Of a stretch of DNA of 64,000 nucleotides, positions 48,326 through 57,243 are shown piece by piece (position 1 is the stretch's first letter; each line of letters opens with the position of its first letter). The stretch lies in assembly GCA_024280335.1 (NCBI GenBank), contig JAJRQI010000054.1:1-64000 (forward strand), written 5' to 3'. The translations under genes were made by a program, and so were the position numbers. The DNA comes from Deltaproteobacteria bacterium (GTDB lineage Bacteria; Desulfobacterota; Desulfuromonadia; Desulfuromonadales; Geopsychrobacteraceae). The notes under the pieces are model-generated. The model made no database searches. It saw only the letters and a list, made by a program, of their open reading frames with translations, and was not told the origin of the DNA.

Positions 48326-50149
48326 TTAGAACTTGCCGAACTCGCTGTCATCCAGGGCAATAACACTGTTCGCCGCCACCATCCGAGGTTGCGCCGTTTG
48401 TCCCCAGCCTTGGCTCGCCTTCGGCTGTGGAACGGGACGCTGTGCGGTGACCTGCGGGGCGGGCTGAAACGCGGCTTGCGGTTGCCGGCCTTTGAGCTGG
48501 AAGCGACTGAGCATATTCTGCAGCCGGCTGGCCTGAGCCGCCAACTGTTCGGCTGAGGCGGCACTCTCTTCGGCGCTGGCAGTGTTTTGCTGGGTAACCT
48601 GGTCGATCTGGCTAATCCCCTGTGAAATCTGGCTGATGCCTTGCGACTGCTCTTCAGATGAGGCGGCAATCTCTTCGGCCAGGTCGGAAACCTTGGTGAC
48701 GCCGGTCAGGATCCCGGCCAGCGATTCAGCGGTCTGTTGCGCAATGGTGGCGCCATTGGTGGTTTTTTGTACTGATCCTTCAATCAGCTCCGAGGTCTCC
48801 TGGGCGGCTTTGGCACTACGCGCAGCCAGATTGCGGACCTCTTCGGCAACCACGGCAAAGCCTTTGCCATGTTGTCCGGCGCGGGCCGCTTCGACCGCTG
48901 CATTTAAGGCCAGCAGATTGGTCTGGAAAGCGATTTCATCGATCACCTTGATGATCTTGCTGATATTCTGTCCCGCCTGGTTGATGTCGTCCATGGCGCC
49001 GACCATCCGCTGCATCTGGTTGTTGCCCTGGTCGGCGGCCTGTTTGGCTTCGCTGGAAAGGTGATTGACCATGCTGGCGTTTTCGGAGTTCTGCTTGGTC
49101 TGTGAGGCCATTTCCGCCAACGAACTGCCGATCTCTTCCAGCGATGCAGCCGACTCTGTGGCACCGGAGGAGAGGGTTTGTGCGGAATCGTTGACCTGAA
49201 TACTGCCCGCTGCAATATGCTCCCCGGAAATCTGAATTTCCTGCATGGTTTCGTTAAGATCGACTTCCAGCTTTTTCAGTGCGCCGCGAATCTCATCGGC
49301 ATCGTCGTAGGGTGTGATTTCAAAGTTGAGATTTCCGTTGGCGAGTTTTTGCAATGCGTCGATTATTTCTTTCTGCAGACTGTCGGCAAAACCGTCCAGC
49401 GCGCGCGCCATGCGGCCGACCTCGTCATTCTGGTCCATATTCATGCGCAGCTGCAGGTGGCCCTTTTCCATCTCTTCGACCATCTCGACCGCTCTGTGCA
49501 TCGGCCGGGAAATGCTGCGGGCAAGAAAAAACACCAGCCCGACAGAGACCAGGGTCGCCAGCAGCAATACCGCCAAGACCGAGTAGAGAACCCTGTTGAT
49601 TTCAGCATTCAGGTCGTCGACGTACATGCCGCTGCCGATAATCCAGTTCCAGGTCGGGTGTTTCTTGACGTAAGAGAGCTTCGGTTGTGGCTCGTCACTG
49701 CCCGGTTTCGGCCACTGGTATTCAACAAAACCGGCATTCTGAGCATTTGTGACATTGACCATTTCCAGAAATAACTTCAATCCGTCAGGATCTTTTACAT
49801 TGGAAAGGTCCTTGCCCTCCAGTGCCGGTTTGATCGGATGCATGATCATTTTCGGCTGGGTGTCGTTAATCCAGAAATAGGTTTTTCCATCAAAGCGCAG
49901 GTTCCTGACCGCCGACATCGCCAGCATCTGTGCTTCACTGGTAGACAGCTCTTCTCCCGCCGATTTGGCGAAATGGTCAATGATCCCCCAGGCAGTGTCG
50001 ACCGCCGTCACCAGTTGGTCCTGGCGGCCGGCATAGAGTTGGTCGCGATAATCAGTGTAGATCCAGATCAGACTGAACGAGAATATCAGGATCAGGGCGG
50101 TGGCGATCAGATAGATCTTTTTGCCGATGTTGAGGTTCTTCAACTTCAT
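48326..50149 (-). CDS. Methyl-accepting chemotaxis protein with single Cache domain
   Basis: The 607-residue receptor has TM1 at about 12-32, a periplasmic sCache_2-type sensor ([20 protein letters not shown], then [12 protein letters not shown]), TM2 at about 185-208, HAMP, and a cytoplasmic signalling domain with the hairpin tip [20 protein letters not shown] then [16 protein letters not shown]. The C-terminus lacks a CheR-tethering pentapeptide. ATG at 50149 follows AGGAG; a longer frame overlaps another gene and is rejected. It is second in an operon behind a sigma-54 promoter (50631-50645). sCache_2 domains commonly bind small organic acids. Confidence 0.93.
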
Positions 50150-50172
50150 GTGAAACTCCTTTGGTGCAGGTG

Positions 50173-50580
50173 TCAGGAGACTTTGCTTGTGGTCTCTTGT
50201 AACGATGTTAAAAACTTGCGCAGATAACTGTGGGTTGCTGCGCTGTTGCATTGCCCGATCAGTGCCTTGAGGTGCGTGTGGCAGTCGAGCCCGGTCAGGG
50301 GGATGATGTCGGTGTCGTGGATCAGGAGGACCGGCAGCATGGCGTTCCGTCGTTCCAGTTCGTTGAGCAGATGCAGGATCGGTTGATTGATGTCGGCATC
50401 GACAATCAACAGCATATCCATCGGCTGCAAACTGTTCTGTCTCTGGACCAGAAAGTTGAAAGCCTCGATATCGTTGTTGATCTGTACCGCCAGGAAATTT
50501 GACAGCCGCAACAGAAAACTCAGGTTGACGACCTTCTCCGGTTGGTTGGCGAGTAACAGAATGTCGGTGGCATGTTTCAT
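50173..50580 (-). CDS. Degenerate receiver-like protein upstream of the receptor gene
   Basis: The 135-residue protein alternates strands and helices like a CheY fold ([31 protein letters not shown]). The acidic pair after strand 1 is replaced by ANQ, the Thr/Ser after strand 4 by His, and no conserved Lys is apparent. It is probably a pseudo-receiver. It lies 23 bases upstream of the receptor gene and 51 bases downstream of a sigma-54 promoter, so the two are co-expressed. The ATG at 50580 is preferred to a longer frame to 50730, which would start upstream of the promoter. Identity is not certain. Confidence 0.6.
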
Positions 50581-50630
50581 CTCTATGAGTCCATTGACCG
50601 GTACCGGCCTGCGGGTTTGCCGTATACAGA

Positions 50631-50645
50631 GCAAGCAGGGTGCCA
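50631..50645 (-). promoter_or_regulatory. Sigma-54 (-24/-12) promoter
   Basis: The minus strand reads TGGCAC-CCTGC-TTGCT. The GG and GC doublets are exactly 10 bases apart, and the match to TGGCACG-N4-TTGCW is all but complete. Transcription would start near 50619, about 40 bases before the pseudo-receiver ATG. An NtrC-type activator is encoded directly upstream. Confidence 0.8.
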
Positions 50646-50721
50646 ACTTTATTTGAAACTGCCAATCATTGAGGATTGCTAACGTTGCGGCGGGTTGTTG
50701 CGAGTCGTTGTCCCTCGAAAG

Positions 50722-50802
50722 GGGTGTCACCAGGGTTACGGTTTTCTTTTGCTGGGGCGGGGAAGGCTTTGTTAGCGGCTGTTTGCCGGGTGTAACCAGG
50801 GT
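50722..50802 (-). promoter_or_regulatory. Two direct repeats, candidate enhancer sites
   Basis: GGGTGTCACCAGGGT (50722-50736) and GGGTGTAACCAGGGT (50788-50802) differ at one base and are spaced 66 bases apart. They lie about 80-160 bases upstream of the sigma-54 promoter, the usual distance for NtrC-type enhancer sites. Each contains the near-palindrome GGTGTnACC. Confidence 0.45.
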
Positions 50803-50840
50803 CTGTGCGGTGCTTCTGGTTGCACCCCTTTGGGGCTGAT

Positions 50841-52265
50841 TTAGTTGCCTGTCGGAGAGGTTGCCCGGTATTTTTTCAGTCGTTTACTCAGCGCCGGGCG
50901 GCTGATGCCGAGCAGACCGGCAGCGATGGTCTGGTTTCCTTGAGAGCGTTGCATGGCCTCATTTACCAGCAACTGACCTGCCTCTTCCAGGCTTGGCAGG
51001 GTTTCGCTGAACCGCAGCTTTTTTTGCGACTTCTGTAGTCCGGGTTCGCCGGCTGAGTCCGTGACCGGTCCGATCGCCTCGCGGAAGCTCGCCATCGACA
51101 GGGTGCCCTTTTGATGGGTGCCGAGAGCGTTGGCGAGCATCCCTTCCAGTTCGCGGATGTTGCCGGGGAAGGGGTAGGTGCCGAGCAGGATCGGCAGTTC
51201 TGCCGGGTAGTCAGGTGCCGGTTTGCCGAGCTGAGCGGCCAGTTTCTCCAGCAGATGCTTGATCAGCAACGGCAGATCGTTGCTGCGCTTGCGCAACGGC
51301 GGCAGTTTGACCTGATGCGCCGCCAGCCGGTAGTAGAGGTCGCGGCGAAAGGTTCCGGCGGCAAGGCGTTGCTGCAGGTCGGCATTGGTCGCCAGGACAA
51401 TGCGCGCTTGTGATTTGCGCGGTCGGTCGGCGCCGAGCGGCAGGTACTCCCCCTCTTGCAGCAGTCGCAGCAGTTTGATCTGCGATGCCGGGCTGAGATC
51501 GCCGATTTCATCGAGGAACAGGGTGCCGCCTGCCGCGCTCTCAATCATTCCGGCGCGGTTTTGCTCGGCACCGGTAAAGGCGCCGCGAAGATGGCCGAAC
51601 AGGGTGTCGGCAAAGACGCTGTCATCCAGCCCGGCGGCATTCAACGCGACCCAGGGGCGGTTCGGCCGACCGATGGTATGTACGGCTCTGGCAAACAGCT
51701 CTTTGCCGGTGCCGCTTTCACCGATGATCAAAATCGGGTTCGGTCCCGGGGCGACCGCCTCCAGATATTTACAGATGGTGAGCAGTTGCGGGTCACAACT
51801 GCAGATTTTACTGAAATGCTCCGGTTGCTCCAGTTCTGCGTTGAGGAAGTGCTGGTTCAGCTGTCGGTTTTCGCGTTGCAGGGCGAGCATTTTGATCGCT
51901 CGCTGGATGCTGGTGAACAGCTGCTGCTGCTCGACACTTTTGACGAAAAAGTCGAAGGCACCCAGCTTCATGCAGCGCACCGACAGTTCGATCTGATTGA
52001 TGCCGGTGAGGATGATGACCGGTATCTCCGGATGGGCTTCAACGATCAGCGGCAGCAGTTCATCACCGCTGATGTGGGGCATGGTGATGTCGAGCAGGAT
52101 CAGATCGATATCGGTTGTTTGCAGCAACTGCATCACCTGGCGGCTGTCGTTGCAGCTGGTGATCCTGCTGATCCCGGTCGCTCGCTCCAGCGCCAGAGAC
52201 AAGCCGTGCAACCAGGCGGCTTCATCATCAATCAACAGCACTGAAATGCCGGTGAAATTGCTCAT
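50841..52265 (-). CDS. NtrC-type sigma-54-dependent response regulator
   Basis: The 474-residue protein has a receiver (LIDDEAAWLHGL, phosphoacceptor in LILLDITMPHISG, about 1-120), an AAA+ domain with GESGTGKELFARAVH, the sigma-54 contact loop GAFTGA and FLDEIGDLSPASQ, and a Fis-type helix-turn-helix at the C-terminus (GNQTIAAGLLGISRPALSKR). It therefore should activate sigma-54 promoters. The kinase gene lies 5 bases upstream; the candidate target promoter is 200 bases downstream. Confidence 0.95.
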   Translation of the reverse strand: MSNFTGISVLLIDDEAAWLHGLSLALERATGISRITSCNDSRQVMQLLQTTDIDLILLDITMPHISGDELLPLIVEAHPEIPVIILTGINQIELSVRCMKLGAFDFFVKSVEQQQLFTSIQRAIKMLALQRENRQLNQHFLNAELEQPEHFSKICSCDPQLLTICKYLEAVAPGPNPILIIGESGTGKELFARAVHTIGRPNRPWVALNAAGLDDSVFADTLFGHLRGAFTGAEQNRAGMIESAAGGTLFLDEIGDLSPASQIKLLRLLQEGEYLPLGADRPRKSQARIVLATNADLQQRLAAGTFRRDLYYRLAAHQVKLPPLRKRSNDLPLLIKHLLEKLAAQLGKPAPDYPAELPILLGTYPFPGNIRELEGMLANALGTHQKGTLSMASFREAIGPVTDSAGEPGLQKSQKKLRFSETLPSLEEAGQLLVNEAMQRSQGNQTIAAGLLGISRPALSKRLKKYRATSPTGN

Positions 52266-52270
52266 GGAGG

Positions 52271-54277
52271 TCAGACCTTTCTTTCCGCCGGGAAAACGAT
52301 ACTGACCACCGTGCCTTCCCCCGGTTTCGACGAGAAGTGCAGGCGACCGTTGTGTTCTTTGATAATCCGCGCCGAGACCGAGAGTCCAAGCCCGGTCCCG
52401 CCCTCTTTCCGTCGGGTGGTGAAGAACGGATCGGTCACGTGCGGTAGTTGCTCTGCTTCGATTCCCCGGCCGCTGTCACTGACCTGCAAAAAAACCTCCT
52501 GCTGATCCTGGTGGTACCCGGTGCAAAGTGAAATGCTCTGCTCGCGGCTGGTCAGGGCTTCACAGGCATTGACCAACAGGTTGACGATCACCTGCTCAAT
52601 CCGTTGCGGAGAACCTTTGATTCTGGGGAGCTGCTCGGCAAGCTGGCTGTTGAAGCGGGCGGTGGTCTTTTTGAGATGATTAGCTGTCAGCCGTTGGGCT
52701 TTTTCCGCAGACCGGTTGAGGTCGAAATATTCATCCTGCGAACGATCCTCCTGCCGGGAAAAATCCTTCAGATCTTCGACGATCTGCTTGATGCGGCGGG
52801 TGCTGTCTTCAAGTTCCGTCATCAGTCGCGGGAAGGCCGCTGCGGCGCGCTCGGCTTTGAACCCGCCCAACGTCAACGTTGGTTGCTCGATGGAAACCTC
52901 TTGCTGCAGGGCGATGGCATCGAGCACAAAGTCACGAAGCGTCGGCAGATTGAGCAGCACCAGACCGTTCGGATTGTTGATCTCATGGGCAACTCCGGCG
53001 GCCAGTTCGCCGAGTGAGGCCAAACGGCTGTTGCGATCGGCTTCACTGCGCAGCCGCTGTTTCTCACTGATATCCTCAATAATGATGATCACGCCGCAGA
53101 TAAGGTTGGCTTTGTCGCGCAGCGGCGCGGTTGAGGCGCTGATCTGCACGTGCCGGCCGTTTTTACGGCACCTGGCGAGTTCCAGTCCGCTGAATTGATC
53201 TCCGGCCAGAGCCCCTTTCAGGTTTGCTGTAGCTTCCCACTCCTTACCCGGCAGCGCCAGGGGGTAGGGGTGGCCGACGATCTCTTCTCGAGTCCAGCCG
53301 AAAATCTCTTCGGCGGCGGGGTTCCAGAGAGTCACCTGCAGATCGGTGTCGACAGCCATAATCGCTAAGGGGGCGGCATTGAAAAGGGCTTCCAGGGTCT
53401 GTTTGCTGCTGCGCAACTCATCTTCGGCCTGTTTTCGTTGGGTGATGTTGCGCAGGATACCGCTGATATGACTCGGTTGCCCCACGGCATCCTGATGCAG
53501 GGTGGCATTGAGTGAAAACGAGACAATCTCGCCGTTTTTATCGATCAGTCTGACTTCGTAATCATTGACCCGGCCGTTCTCCTGAATCTTCTGCAGAAAT
53601 CGTTGTCGATCCTCAACATCGGCATAGTAGCTCAGGATGTTTTTCCCGATCAGTTCCGTTCTTTGGTAGTTGAAATTTTTATCCCCTGAAGGGCTGATCT
53701 CCAGAATGGCTCCTTGCGGACTGGTTTCGTAGTAGATATCCTGCAGGTTTTCATAGATAGAGCGATAGCGCTTTTCGCTTTCAGCCAGCTGCTGGTAAGT
53801 AACTTTCAGGGTCTGGGTTCTCTGCTCGACTTTCTCTTCAAGCTGTTTTTGATGAGAAAGGTTTTCTTGCCGCAGGCGGGTTCGTTCAAAGGCTTTTTCA
53901 ATACTGTGTTGCAGGATTTGCAAATCAATAATCGGTTTGAGAATAAAATCCCAGGCACCCAGGTGCAGCGCCTTGACGACATCTCTACTTGTGTTGGTTC
54001 CGGAAATAACGATAATCGGCAACTCCGGGTTCAACTGCCGAAGCTGTTTGAGACATTCAAATCCGTCCCGGCCGGGGATCCGCAGGTCGAGCAGGATCAG
54101 GTCGGGCCGGTGCCGCTGGTAAAGTTCGAGACCGGTGACGCCATTGTCGGCTTCTAAAATCCGGTAGCCCAGGTCCGCCAGGAAATAGACAAAGCTGGCG
54201 CGGATATTTTTTTCATCTTCAATCGTCAGGATGGTTTTTACGGGGTCTGCATTGCTGGAGGTCGGTTCTGCAAACAA
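52271..54277 (-). CDS. Hybrid sensor histidine kinase (REC-PAS-PAS-HisKA-HATPase)
   Basis: The 668-residue cytoplasmic kinase has an N-terminal receiver (TIEDEKNIRASF, phosphoacceptor in LILLDLRIPGRDG), a coiled coil (about 135-170), two PAS domains (about 175-290 and 295-415; IFGWTREEIVG), the phosphohistidine in LAAGVAHEINNPNG and an ATPase with NLLVNACEAL, DSGRGIE and GTGLGLSVS. No membrane segment is seen, so it senses internal cues or receives signals via its receiver. It forms a two-gene unit with the NtrC-type regulator. Confidence 0.94.
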   Translation of the reverse strand: MFAEPTSSNADPVKTILTIEDEKNIRASFVYFLADLGYRILEADNGVTGLELYQRHRPDLILLDLRIPGRDGFECLKQLRQLNPELPIIVISGTNTSRDVVKALHLGAWDFILKPIIDLQILQHSIEKAFERTRLRQENLSHQKQLEEKVEQRTQTLKVTYQQLAESEKRYRSIYENLQDIYYETSPQGAILEISPSGDKNFNYQRTELIGKNILSYYADVEDRQRFLQKIQENGRVNDYEVRLIDKNGEIVSFSLNATLHQDAVGQPSHISGILRNITQRKQAEDELRSSKQTLEALFNAAPLAIMAVDTDLQVTLWNPAAEEIFGWTREEIVGHPYPLALPGKEWEATANLKGALAGDQFSGLELARCRKNGRHVQISASTAPLRDKANLICGVIIIIEDISEKQRLRSEADRNSRLASLGELAAGVAHEINNPNGLVLLNLPTLRDFVLDAIALQQEVSIEQPTLTLGGFKAERAAAAFPRLMTELEDSTRRIKQIVEDLKDFSRQEDRSQDEYFDLNRSAEKAQRLTANHLKKTTARFNSQLAEQLPRIKGSPQRIEQVIVNLLVNACEALTSREQSISLCTGYHQDQQEVFLQVSDSGRGIEAEQLPHVTDPFFTTRRKEGGTGLGLSVSARIIKEHNGRLHFSSKPGEGTVVSIVFPAERKV

Positions 54278-54421: not shown

Positions 54422-55204
54422 TTACTCGACGGTCACTTTAGCATCTTCGATGATGACGTTGTACTGGTAGCCGTAACCGAAGTCTTTGTCGAGGGTCAGG
54501 GCGCCGGTGACCAGAACGGTGTCGCCGACATTGGCGGTGATGTCGGTGGTCACGGTCAGATCGTTGGTGCCTGAAGCGGCGTCACCACTGCCATCCTGCA
54601 GGTGGATCCAGTTTTTCCCCATGATCTGCGGGCTGAATTTTACCACCTTGCCGCGCAGAATCACTTCCTTGCCGGCCAGTGTCGCTTTGTCAGAGAAGAG
54701 TTCACCAACGGTCAGGCCGCCTTCGGCTTTTACAATATTGCTCAGGTCGATATCTGCAGCAGGAGCTGAGGCAGGTATCGCGGCATCGTGTATTTGCGCG
54801 TCTGCAGGGGCACCAGCCGGGGAGCTGGCGTTCATGACAGAATCAACAAAGTAGACAACCGGAAAATCACGGTCGAGGGTCTGGCTGTGGTAGTTGTTCA
54901 TCGGCATACCATCGGGGACGATGACCGAATCGCCGACGGCGACAGTGAACTTAGGGGCGGCAGCCCAGATCTTTTCGCTACCGCTGTCGACTTGAACATA
55001 GGTGTAGCCAGCTGCGTCCATGGTTTCTAAAACGGTTCCGGAAGTGCCACCGACCTTGTTCGTGGTGGGAATCGGTGCAGAGGTGGCAACGGGTGCCGAA
55101 GCTTGTGGTGCTTGAGCAACCGGTTGGGCCGGTTGGTCATTACTGCAGGCGGCAAGTGAGAGAGCAGCGAGAGCAACGGTAATGAGTGTCAGGGTCTTTT
55201 TCAC
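54422..55204 (-). CDS. Lipoprotein with C-terminal OB-fold-like domain
   Basis: The 260-residue protein has a lipoprotein signal peptide (lipobox SLAAC, Cys at about 20), a Pro/Ala/Gln-rich linker, a small beta domain (SGTVLETMDAAGYTYVQVDS, then KIWAAAPKF) and, after a second linker, a tRNA-anti-like OB fold (about 165-258; VILRGKVVKFSPQIMGKNWI, HLQDGSG). Such lipoproteins recur beside respiratory genes, but the function is not known to me. RBS AGGATT. It is monocistronic with its own terminator. Confidence 0.85.
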   Translation of the reverse strand: MKKTLTLITVALAALSLAACSNDQPAQPVAQAPQASAPVATSAPIPTTNKVGGTSGTVLETMDAAGYTYVQVDSGSEKIWAAAPKFTVAVGDSVIVPDGMPMNNYHSQTLDRDFPVVYFVDSVMNASSPAGAPADAQIHDAAIPASAPAADIDLSNIVKAEGGLTVGELFSDKATLAGKEVILRGKVVKFSPQIMGKNWIHLQDGSGDAASGTNDLTVTTDITANVGDTVLVTGALTLDKDFGYGYQYNVIIEDAKVTVE

Positions 55205-55310
55205 GACGATAATCCTCCAGCGTGTGTGCCGCTTTGGGCGGCTTGTTAATTTTTAATTCGGCCGAACGATAGCATAGCCCCGAAAACAGATACAAGCGAT
55301 TAAAGCGCCC

Positions 55311-56819
55311 TTATGGCGTTTCTGCGGGAATGCACAGCCCGCGTCCGTACAGATGAGAAACGTGGCGGAATTGCTTGGTTATTTCACGGGTTAGCTGGTT
55401 AGCTCCGAGTCGCCATTGCCAATTACCCTGGGCCGTTCCGGGGCGGTTCATGCGGCTTTCGGCGTCAAGCGCCAACAGGTCCTGGAGCGGTATAATCGCC
55501 AGGTTGGCAACACTCGACAGGGCCGTTTCAATCAGTGGCTCGGGCATATCGCGGCATGGGCGTTGCAGATATTCCTTGACCTGTTTCTGCCCTTTTGCGC
55601 TGAGTGATCGCCACCAGCCGAGCGTGGTGTTGTTGTCGTGGGTCCCGGTGTAGACGACCGAATTGGGCAGATGATTGTGTGGCAGGTAGGGATTGGTCGG
55701 CCCGGAATCAAAAGCGAATTGCAGGATCTTCATCCCCGGCAGTTCAAACTGGTCGCGCAATTCCTCGACCTCTGCGGTGATCACCCCAAGGTCTTCGGCA
55801 ACGATCGGCAGTTTGCCGAGTTCATTCCGTAGGGCGGTAAACAGCTGAAATCCTGCTGCCGGCAGCCATTCTCCGTTGATTGCGGTCGGTTCATCTGCCG
55901 GGATTGCCCAGCAGGCGGCAAAACCGCGGAAATGATCGACCCGCACCAGGTCGAACAGTTGCAGGTTCCAGCGGAACCTCGCCAGCCACCAGGAAAAGCC
56001 GTTCTCGGCCATCCGTTCCCATCGGTAGAGCGGGTTGCCCCAACGTTGCCCGGTTTTACTGAAGTAGTCGGGCGGTACCCCGGCGACCAGGGTCGCCTGA
56101 TCCTCTTCATCCAGATAGAACAGCTGGCGATTGGCCCAGACGTCAGCAGAATCAGCGGCGACAAAAATCGGCAGATCGCCGAAGATCTGTACGCCTTTTG
56201 CGTTGGCGTATTTTTTCAGTTCGAACCACTGTTCGAAGAAGATGAATTGCAGATATTTGTGCCACTCTATCTGCTCGTGGAGCTTGATTCCCCATTCATG
56301 CAGGGCCGCATCGTGACGCTGGCGAAGCTCCGGCGGCCAATCTTGCCAACCCTGCCACTGCCGCTGTTCGCGCATCGCCTGAAAGAAGGCGTAATCGTTG
56401 AGCCAGTAGGCCTGATCCCGACAGAACTCGGCGTAATCCTGCAGCCGCTCGATATCCGGTCCGGTAGAAAAGCGTTGAAAGGCACGTTTCAGCAGCGGCA
56501 GTTGGATTTTACCGGCGGTGGCATAGTCGGCTTTATGGTCAGGCGGATGGTGGGCTGGCAGTTCCTTTTTCAGCAGATCACCGTTTTCCACCAATCGCTC
56601 AAGGCTGATCAGCAGAGGTTCACCGGCAAAGGCAGAGTAGCAACTGTAGGGACAGTCGCCGTAGCCGATCGGTCCCAACGGCAGGATCTGCCAGACCGAT
56701 TGACCCGCTTCGACCAGGAAATCGACAAAATCGCGGGCTTCCCGGCCCAGTGAGCCGATCGCTTGCGGACCGGCCAGAGAGGTCGGATGAAGCAGGATGC
56801 CGCTGCACCTTTTGTGCAA
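55311..56819 (-). CDS. malQ: 4-alpha-glucanotransferase MalQ
   Basis: The 502-residue GH77 enzyme has the catalytic nucleophile in FDLVRVDHFRGFAACW, acid Glu in PIVAEDLGVIT and third Asp in VYTGTHDNNTTLGWW. It starts RCSGILLHPTSLAGP as usual. It rearranges maltodextrins, helping glycogen breakdown and synthesis together with the cluster at 19.6-30 kb. The start is TTG at 56819, 7 bases after GGAGG. Confidence 0.95.
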   Translation of the reverse strand: MHKRCSGILLHPTSLAGPQAIGSLGREARDFVDFLVEAGQSVWQILPLGPIGYGDCPYSCYSAFAGEPLLISLERLVENGDLLKKELPAHHPPDHKADYATAGKIQLPLLKRAFQRFSTGPDIERLQDYAEFCRDQAYWLNDYAFFQAMREQRQWQGWQDWPPELRQRHDAALHEWGIKLHEQIEWHKYLQFIFFEQWFELKKYANAKGVQIFGDLPIFVAADSADVWANRQLFYLDEEDQATLVAGVPPDYFSKTGQRWGNPLYRWERMAENGFSWWLARFRWNLQLFDLVRVDHFRGFAACWAIPADEPTAINGEWLPAAGFQLFTALRNELGKLPIVAEDLGVITAEVEELRDQFELPGMKILQFAFDSGPTNPYLPHNHLPNSVVYTGTHDNNTTLGWWRSLSAKGQKQVKEYLQRPCRDMPEPLIETALSSVANLAIIPLQDLLALDAESRMNRPGTAQGNWQWRLGANQLTREITKQFRHVSHLYGRGLCIPAETP

Positions 56820-56868
56820 TATCTGTCCTCCAAGGTGAAAAAACTTTCCGGTTTACGGAAAGCTCGGG

Positions 56869-57243
56869 TCAGCGGTCGTTGCCGAGGTAATCTTTAATCA
56901 GTTTGGCAACTTCGGCCGATTTGAACGGTTTGGTGATATATTCATCGGCACCCGCTTTTCTGCCCTGCTCGACATCTTCGCCGGTTTTTTTGGCTGAGAC
57001 CATAAATACCGGCATATCGGCGGTTGCCAGCGTTTGTTTGATGTGTCGGCAGATTTTAAAGCCGTCCATATCGGGCAGCATCACATCCAGCAGCGCCAGC
57101 GCCGGAGTCTCCTGGGCCAACAGTTTTAACGCGTCCATGCCGCAGGAGACGCCGATCGGCTCGTAACCGAGCAGTTTCAGCATGGTCGTGGACAGCTCAA
57201 GGATCGGCGCGCTGTCATCGACAACCAGAATTTTCTTTTTCAT
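56869..57243 (-). CDS. Single-domain response regulator
   Basis: The 124-residue receiver has the acidic pair VVDDSAP, phosphoacceptor in LALLDVMLPDMDG, Ser in FMVSAK and Lys in YITKPF. All catalytic residues are present. Its stop lies 49 bases before the malQ start on the same strand, so the two may be co-transcribed. RBS GGAGGATATTC precedes the ATG. Confidence 0.92.
   Translation of the reverse strand: MKKKILVVDDSAPILELSTTMLKLLGYEPIGVSCGMDALKLLAQETPALALLDVMLPDMDGFKICRHIKQTLATADMPVFMVSAKKTGEDVEQGRKAGADEYITKPFKSAEVAKLIKDYLGNDR

Follow-up and report, generated by a model that had tools for sequence, protein, structure and literature searches.

The stretch analysed here, hereafter the window, comprises the first 64,000 nucleotides of contig JAJRQI010000054.1 (assembly GCA_024280335.1), from a Deltaproteobacteria bacterium of the family Geopsychrobacteraceae. 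Its minus strand carries, in order, the genes of a sensor histidine kinase, an NtrC-type regulator, a 135-residue protein that we call the pseudo-receiver, and a chemoreceptor (Table 1). The regulator and pseudo-receiver genes are separated by a gap of 260 bases, which holds a sigma-54 promoter element and three dyads and is the focus of this work, and the chemoreceptor gene starts 23 bases past the pseudo-receiver stop. The preliminary description of this DNA had placed an NtrC-type regulator with a GAFTGA motif beyond the repeats in this gap and a hybrid kinase beside it. Pfam matches and the sequence bear out the regulator, and they confirm a kinase with a receiver, although this receiver sits at the N-terminus. 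The receiver of the regulator is of the phosphorylatable type (Pfam; alignment), and the recognition helix of the regulator reads ..LLGISRPALSKRL.. in an alignment of 21 sequences. The genome also encodes an RpoN DNA-binding domain (PF04552, 221.6 bits) and has two flagellin matches. The pseudo-receiver is matched in 9 of 44 genomes of the family, its own genome counted, and the regulator lies directly upstream in eight of these nine; in the ninth (G042), no regulator was found within the 1,252 bases between the pseudo-receiver and the contig end. A related kinase gene immediately precedes the regulator at 7 of the 8 family loci besides the window, the eighth being the G042 stretch without such a regulator. 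The order of kinase, NtrC-type activator, pseudo-receiver and chemoreceptor genes is conserved.

Table 1. Predicted genes and regulatory features of the locus, with the basis of each assignment.
Feature	Position	Strand	Basis and remarks
Sigma-54 (-24/-12) element TGGCACCCTGCTTGCT	50645..50630	minus	Exact pattern, held-out matrix, conservation
Dyad P, proximal, strongest	50725..50740	minus	10/12; centre 87 bp above -24 T; 24-mer 50721-50744; contains first repeat
Dyad D1, weak	50791..50806	minus	8/12; centre 153 bp above -24 T; 24-mer 50787-50810; contains second repeat
Dyad D2, distal, weak	50809..50824	minus	8/12 half-site positions; centre 171 bp above -24 T; 24-mer 50805-50828
Sensor histidine kinase, receiver-PAS-PAS-HisKA-HATPase	52271..54277	minus	Pfam matches (HisKA under its cut-off)
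NtrC-type sigma-54 activator: receiver, AAA with GAFTGA, Fis-type helix-turn-helix	50841..52265	minus	Pfam, alignment of 21 sequences
Pseudo-receiver, 135 residues, aspartate-less; first gene of the operon	50173..50580	minus	Profile match, predicted model
Methyl-accepting chemotaxis protein: periplasmic-type single-Cache sensor domain, HAMP, MCPsignal	48326..50149	minus	Pfam

The element TGGCACCCTGCTTGCT fits the TGGCAC-N5-TTGCW consensus exactly, with GG-N10-GC spacing. Its sequence and spacing had been described correctly, whereas the distance to the pseudo-receiver ATG at 50580 is 49 bases and not the 51 given earlier. On its own the element is little proof, as the pattern is not rare. A loose pattern with one mismatch is expected 2.9 times per shuffled window and was found once; the whole genome (3.59 Mb) contains 9 exact matches, compared with 2 for a reversed-pattern control. 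We regard the element as more than chance because it is conserved at the same place and is ranked first by a held-out matrix. This matrix was trained on 20 elements of other loci, the window excluded, and when both strands of the 64 kb were scored it gave TGGCACCCTGCTTGCT 19.0 and the runner-up 13.5. Among the family loci that were compared first, TGGCAY-N5-TTGCT occurs in 8 of 8 gaps between regulator and pseudo-receiver, the window among them. A larger scan covered 115 distinct loci picked by their proteins rather than by promoter (L209, a duplicate of L085, was left out). It required at least 300 downstream bases, and an element was counted if it matched at least 9 of 11 positions and lay no more than 480 nt from the regulator stop. 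Where the next gene matches the pseudo-receiver profile, the gap contains the element at 37 of 38 distinct loci, counting the window, against a base-shuffled expectation of 0.55 and against 3 of 35 loci in a control stretch 1500-1980 bases downstream (with the duplicate kept: 38 of 39, shuffled 1.1, control 3 of 36). It also precedes a TAXI-type transporter gene at 22 of 24 loci (shuffled 0.85; control 1/22) and a DctA-type gene at 2 of 2 (shuffled 0; control 0/1), and is present at 23 of the 51 loci with other downstream genes (shuffled 1.05; control 0/43). No sigma-54 element was found at pseudo-receiver genes without a directly upstream regulator (contig 12 of the same genome, G020, G007), nor at the pseudo-receiver of G071, though the contig ends there 340 bases upstream. 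The second pseudo-receiver copy of G033, whose contig ends 195 bases upstream, does have one. Elsewhere in the same genome, on contig 13 (121098-121113, L002), an identical 16-base element, spacer included, stands ahead of a gene that we read as an iron-alcohol-dehydrogenase gene.

Further up in the gap lie two 15-nt repeats (50722-50736 and 50788-50802) that are 93% alike and stand 77-157 bases above TGGCACCCTGCTTGCT. The preliminary description had reported them as direct repeats, which they are, but they form parts of two of three longer dyads, and a third, inverted copy at 50816-50831 had been overlooked. Comparison with other loci assigns all three copies to the dyad TGYAAC-N4-GTTRCA. When the 64 kb were scored with a matrix built from 18 dyads of other loci, dyad P ranked first (15.9; next 11.2), D1 11th and D2 15th. 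The recurrent spacing of such dyads is the strongest evidence, from sequence, that they are activator sites. Spacing was counted in 83 gaps of all target classes (84 with the duplicate) for dyads that match at least 9 of 12 half-site positions. Measured from the -24 T, these cluster 80-90, 150-170 and 170-180 bp upstream. A distance of 17-19 bp separates 39 pairs (shuffles: mean 0.74, maximum 3), one of 66-70 bp separates 19 (mean 0.94, maximum 5) and one of 84-89 bp separates 30 (mean 0.78, maximum 3). The window dyads are spaced by 18, 66 and 84 bp and their centres fall on commonly used places. The predicted dyadic sites, one strong and two weak, fit the NtrC-type expectation of sites roughly 100-200 bp above the start. 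The sequence CTGGTKNCACCC occurs exactly three times in the genome, each time in the gap between regulator and pseudo-receiver, the pattern having been derived from these sites and about 3 chance matches being expected. When the genome was searched for the full dyad with at most 3 mismatches, 47 places were found on each strand, compared with 50 for a reversed control; as there is no excess, we claim no regulon outside this gap.

Because gene order, sigma-54 element and fixed-spacing dyads are conserved in many genomes, we put at roughly 80% the probability that the adjacent kinase-regulator pair drives a sigma-54 operon for the pseudo-receiver and a carboxylate chemoreceptor. Sequence comparison establishes the genes, the promoter element, the dyads with their layout, and the pocket residues described below; from these we infer phosphotransfer, binding and activation. 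The kinase would phosphorylate the adjoining regulator, which would then bind dyads P, D1 and D2, centred 87, 153 and 171 bp upstream of the -24 element, and open the sigma-54 promoter (50645..50630). Transcription from this promoter would cover first the pseudo-receiver gene and next the chemoreceptor gene. The receptor, with its acetate/propionate-type Cache pocket, would join the chemosensory array, and the state sensed by the kinase would decide whether the cell follows small carboxylates. The earlier proposal that kinase and regulator switch on the receptor operon is thus very probably right on the comparative evidence of order, element and dyads, while the cytoplasmic signal that it invoked is read solely from the PAS domains of the kinase.

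The same switch layout, as far as sequences tell, recurs in related bacteria before either chemosensory or uptake genes. The regulator shares the receiver-AAA-helix-turn-helix architecture of AtoC and NtrC, which are its best families (NF008469, 310 bits; TIGR01818, 292 bits). These scores are far under the curated cut-offs of 714 and 558.6 bits, and the regulator is therefore not filed as either. Members of its subfamily (E <= 1e-120) occur in 99 of 136 genomes from the order, and the genome studied here has at least four of them; at most 11 candidates were scored per genome. Going by our reading of the sequences, sister regulators precede TAXI-TRAP-type transporter operons; in Photobacterium halotolerans and an Oceanospirillaceae genome they precede a DctA-type gene, and in Desulfospira a transporter gene together with an acetyl-CoA-synthetase-like one. 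Loci L161-L200 include subfamily copies before TAXI-TRAP-type operons with sigma-54 elements and TATAAC-N4-GTTATA-like dyads. Two members (L174, L099) precede a pair that reads as iron-sulphur/molybdopterin-type oxidoreductase-like, and the gap in between contains a sigma-54 element. A tree of 80 regulators places every one of the 21 TAXI rows, together with the two DctA rows, in a single clade whose 34 rows uniformly have Gln in the helix, and pseudo-receiver rows, mostly with Arg, are scattered over the backbone. A single clade of chemotaxis-linked regulators was rejected for that spread.

The helix residue is matched by a base in the operator. Under the dyad rule, Arg rows have 19 G and 6 undecided, and Gln rows 25 A, 1 G and 5 undecided; under the half-site rule, the 25 Arg rows have 21 G, 1 A and 3 undecided, and all 31 Gln rows have A. 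The prediction of G for Arg and A for Gln (half-site rule) was fixed before 40 more loci were fetched. Of these, 22 were set aside for another or unreadable residue or for want of a promoter. The remaining 18 gave 15 as predicted, 1 against (L210) and 2 undecided (L202, L208), with a Fisher p of 0.0014 for the decided rows, which are related. Two of the loci set aside (L207, L237) have His regulators beside G-containing half-sites, in 2 of 2 with a promoter. Nine Gln regulators precede pseudo-receivers; because 7 of them carry A (1 G, 1 undecided), the operator base tends to follow the helix residue rather than the target. The correspondence comprises about 3 changes on the tree, few independent switches. 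The independent pairs number 1 on well-supported branches and 3 on all branches; the pairings displayed go the way predicted, and the number is too small for significance.

Several observations weigh against regulation of this operon by the adjacent pair. Locus L087 has a receiver-profile gene and no sigma-54 element, and in G105 two receptor genes stand between regulator and pseudo-receiver and the element reaches only 8/11. The pseudo-receiver profile also takes some ordinary-looking receivers (L087, L167). The dyad consensus was initially chosen by eye while the window was under inspection, which means that the window was kept out of matrix training but not out of motif discovery. D1 and D2 reach only 8/12, under the cut of 9, so the window contributes no pair and the spacing counts are unchanged without it; a fourth site in the window, 36 bp above the element, also scores 8/12. 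Furthermore, D1 and D2 together are an inverted repeat that, as RNA, could form a hairpin of -24.8 kcal/mol (z -1.9; equally low in 8 of 200 shuffles). They might on this account be an mRNA hairpin that ends the regulator transcript, or the repeats might be the sites of an unrelated protein. We consider this highly improbable, as the third copy sits 66 bp off, no terminator-like T tail was found at 50150-50900, dyads 18 bp apart recur in other gaps and the operator base tracks the regulator helix residue in most loci. The genome also has at least three further regulators of the subfamily. With at least four members present, a paralogue could drive the promoter in place of the adjacent regulator, as could a flagellar master regulator; FgrM is reportedly a flagellar sigma-54 activator of Geobacter. 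Control by another activator seems quite improbable to us. The contig-24 paralogue has Gln in its helix and a TAXI-type gene with a 9/11 element about 2.3 kb downstream, and exact copies of CTGGTKNCACCC are confined to this gap, with the chance expectation given above for a pattern made from these very sites. Finally, most transcription of the operon could come from read-through of the kinase-regulator transcript or from a vegetative promoter that escaped notice, the sigma-54 element being minor: the four genes share one strand, and no terminator-like site was found at 50150-50900. This is improbable in our judgement, given that promoter and dyads stand at conserved fixed distances in many genomes. 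A search limited to the sigma-70 type also found no such site at 50150-50900, although just 0.2 would be expected there by chance. Activation by the adjacent regulator remains our preferred reading.

Neither Pfam nor NCBIfam gave a match to the 135-residue protein at E 0.001. A profile built from 8 sequences matches the PhoP receiver (E 3.7e-5), and the predicted model (predicted local distance difference test, pLDDT, 80.6; the other four models 58.9-69.3) has a receiver fold (Foldseek E 5.2e-5 to 1mvo). Structural Z scores of 14.5 for RitR, the top VIA-align row, and 14.3 for PhoP amount to a tie. The phospho-aspartate column holds Asn in 16, Asp in 7 and other residues in 15 of 38 sequences, with Val in the window. 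Having a receiver fold and lacking the phospho-aspartate, the protein is therefore an aspartate-less receiver (ALR), as the term is used in the passages covered of PMC4395418. RitR, with Asn at the phosphorylation site, is the ALR example given there. The pseudo-receivers resemble it in that Asn is also their commonest residue; they differ in that they stand alone, lead chemosensory operons, have a conserved Cys and lack a DNA-binding domain. Ten proteins downstream of the pseudo-receiver, scanned in 9 loci, comprise CheW in four cases, a CheA-type kinase, CheD, a CheY-like receiver and three receptors, and downstream genes at the remaining loci were read by eye. By this genomic company the pseudo-receiver belongs with chemosensory operons, where it may serve as an array accessory. 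Alternatively, it could act in feedback with the kinase or the regulator, or its conserved cysteine could make it a redox-responsive adaptor. Cys occupies one late column in 29 of the 38 sequences, Asp is rare at the phosphorylation column, and the top structural match, RitR, is a redox-sensing receiver. However, the lead of RitR over ordinary receivers is below 1 in Z, the RitR cysteine is residue 128 and is taken to sit elsewhere in the fold, and nothing connects Cys111 with redox chemistry; we find these roles somewhat unlikely and favour the array accessory. A second pseudo-receiver-like gene in the same genome (contig 12, 9000-20500; L074, L162) stands immediately before a receptor. Kinases separate it from a subfamily regulator, and no close upstream sigma-54 element was found.

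The sensor domain of the chemoreceptor matches the Cache structures 4k08 (E 7.9e-48) and 5g4y, which is PscD (E 3.6e-43). PscD contacts propionate through Tyr90, Trp92, His103, Phe126, Tyr143, Trp145 and Lys156, and 4k08 contains acetate (both from the passages covered of PMC5062169). The receptor has all seven of these residues in an alignment that is ungapped there, because of which we infer that its ligand is probably a C2/C3 carboxylate of the acetate/propionate type. The new chemotactic taste of the preliminary description can thus be named more narrowly, since a known C2/C3-carboxylate pocket is kept. The likeness to the single-Cache domains of PscD and Adeh_3718 (5g4y, 4k08) lies in these pocket residues; the host bacterium differs, and the ligand here is predicted from residues. 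The seven-residue pattern is shared by 16 of the 37 remaining pseudo-receiver loci and by 2 of 55 loci of other kinds, and was found at none of the 24 TAXI or 2 DctA loci; some of the fetched stretches stop short of a receptor. Many receptors beside a pseudo-receiver (48326-48370 in the window, and several relatives) share a C-terminal tail like I-A-L-D-D-x-E-F-G-K/R-F/Y. This tail is perhaps a methyltransferase tether, and some other receptors in these operons end in LDxxFExF/Y. Upstream of the kinase (54422-57243) are a lipoprotein-like gene, a 4-alpha-glucanotransferase-like gene (both labels are our reading) and a single-domain receiver. Their counterparts adjoin the kinase in several relatives, with no evident link.

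Sigma-54 control of chemotaxis genes is already known; the module itself was not found in the literature passages covered. In Geobacter, sigma-54 promoters were predicted before che and mcp operons (Tran et al. 2008, PMC2577667). As here, -24/-12 elements are predicted in front of chemotaxis genes, in bacteria related to this one; unlike the present case, the passages covered describe no activator, no sites for it to bind, no pseudo-receiver and no conservation of such a module. For the two-component sigma-54 activators of Desulfovibrio vulgaris, target operons and repeat motifs were mapped, and some motifs are common to paralogues (PMC3333781). These too are receiver-type local activators with repeat motifs and target operons, but their targets in the passages covered are lactate use, flagella, pili and others, and the module was not found there. 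It was likewise not found in the passages covered of the G. sulfurreducens RpoN regulon study (PMC2725144) and of a 2025 sigma-54 survey (PMC12316311). Searches of open-licence literature, a weak negative in both cases, found nothing matching an operon of pseudo-receiver and chemoreceptor and nothing on the specificity of the activator recognition helix.

We would venture, with less than even confidence, that the subfamily splits its copies between swimming to and taking up small carboxylates. Regulators with Arg would read T-G-Y-AAC dyads, mostly before chemosensory operons, and those with Gln T-A-Y-AAC dyads, mostly before TAXI-TRAP or DctA genes, so that a single residue would insulate paralogues sharing a cell. 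In the chemosensory branch, the first gene would then belong to a new receiver family, marked by the lack of the aspartate and the presence of a cysteine, that tunes the array other than by phosphorylation. This pseudo-receiver family offers chemotaxis researchers a component without a known role. If they hold in more independent cases, the three-site layout and the correspondence of Arg/Gln with G/A would make it possible to pair regulator and target by sequence alone. The module as a whole provides a concrete, testable case in which gene regulation would decide what a bacterium can smell.
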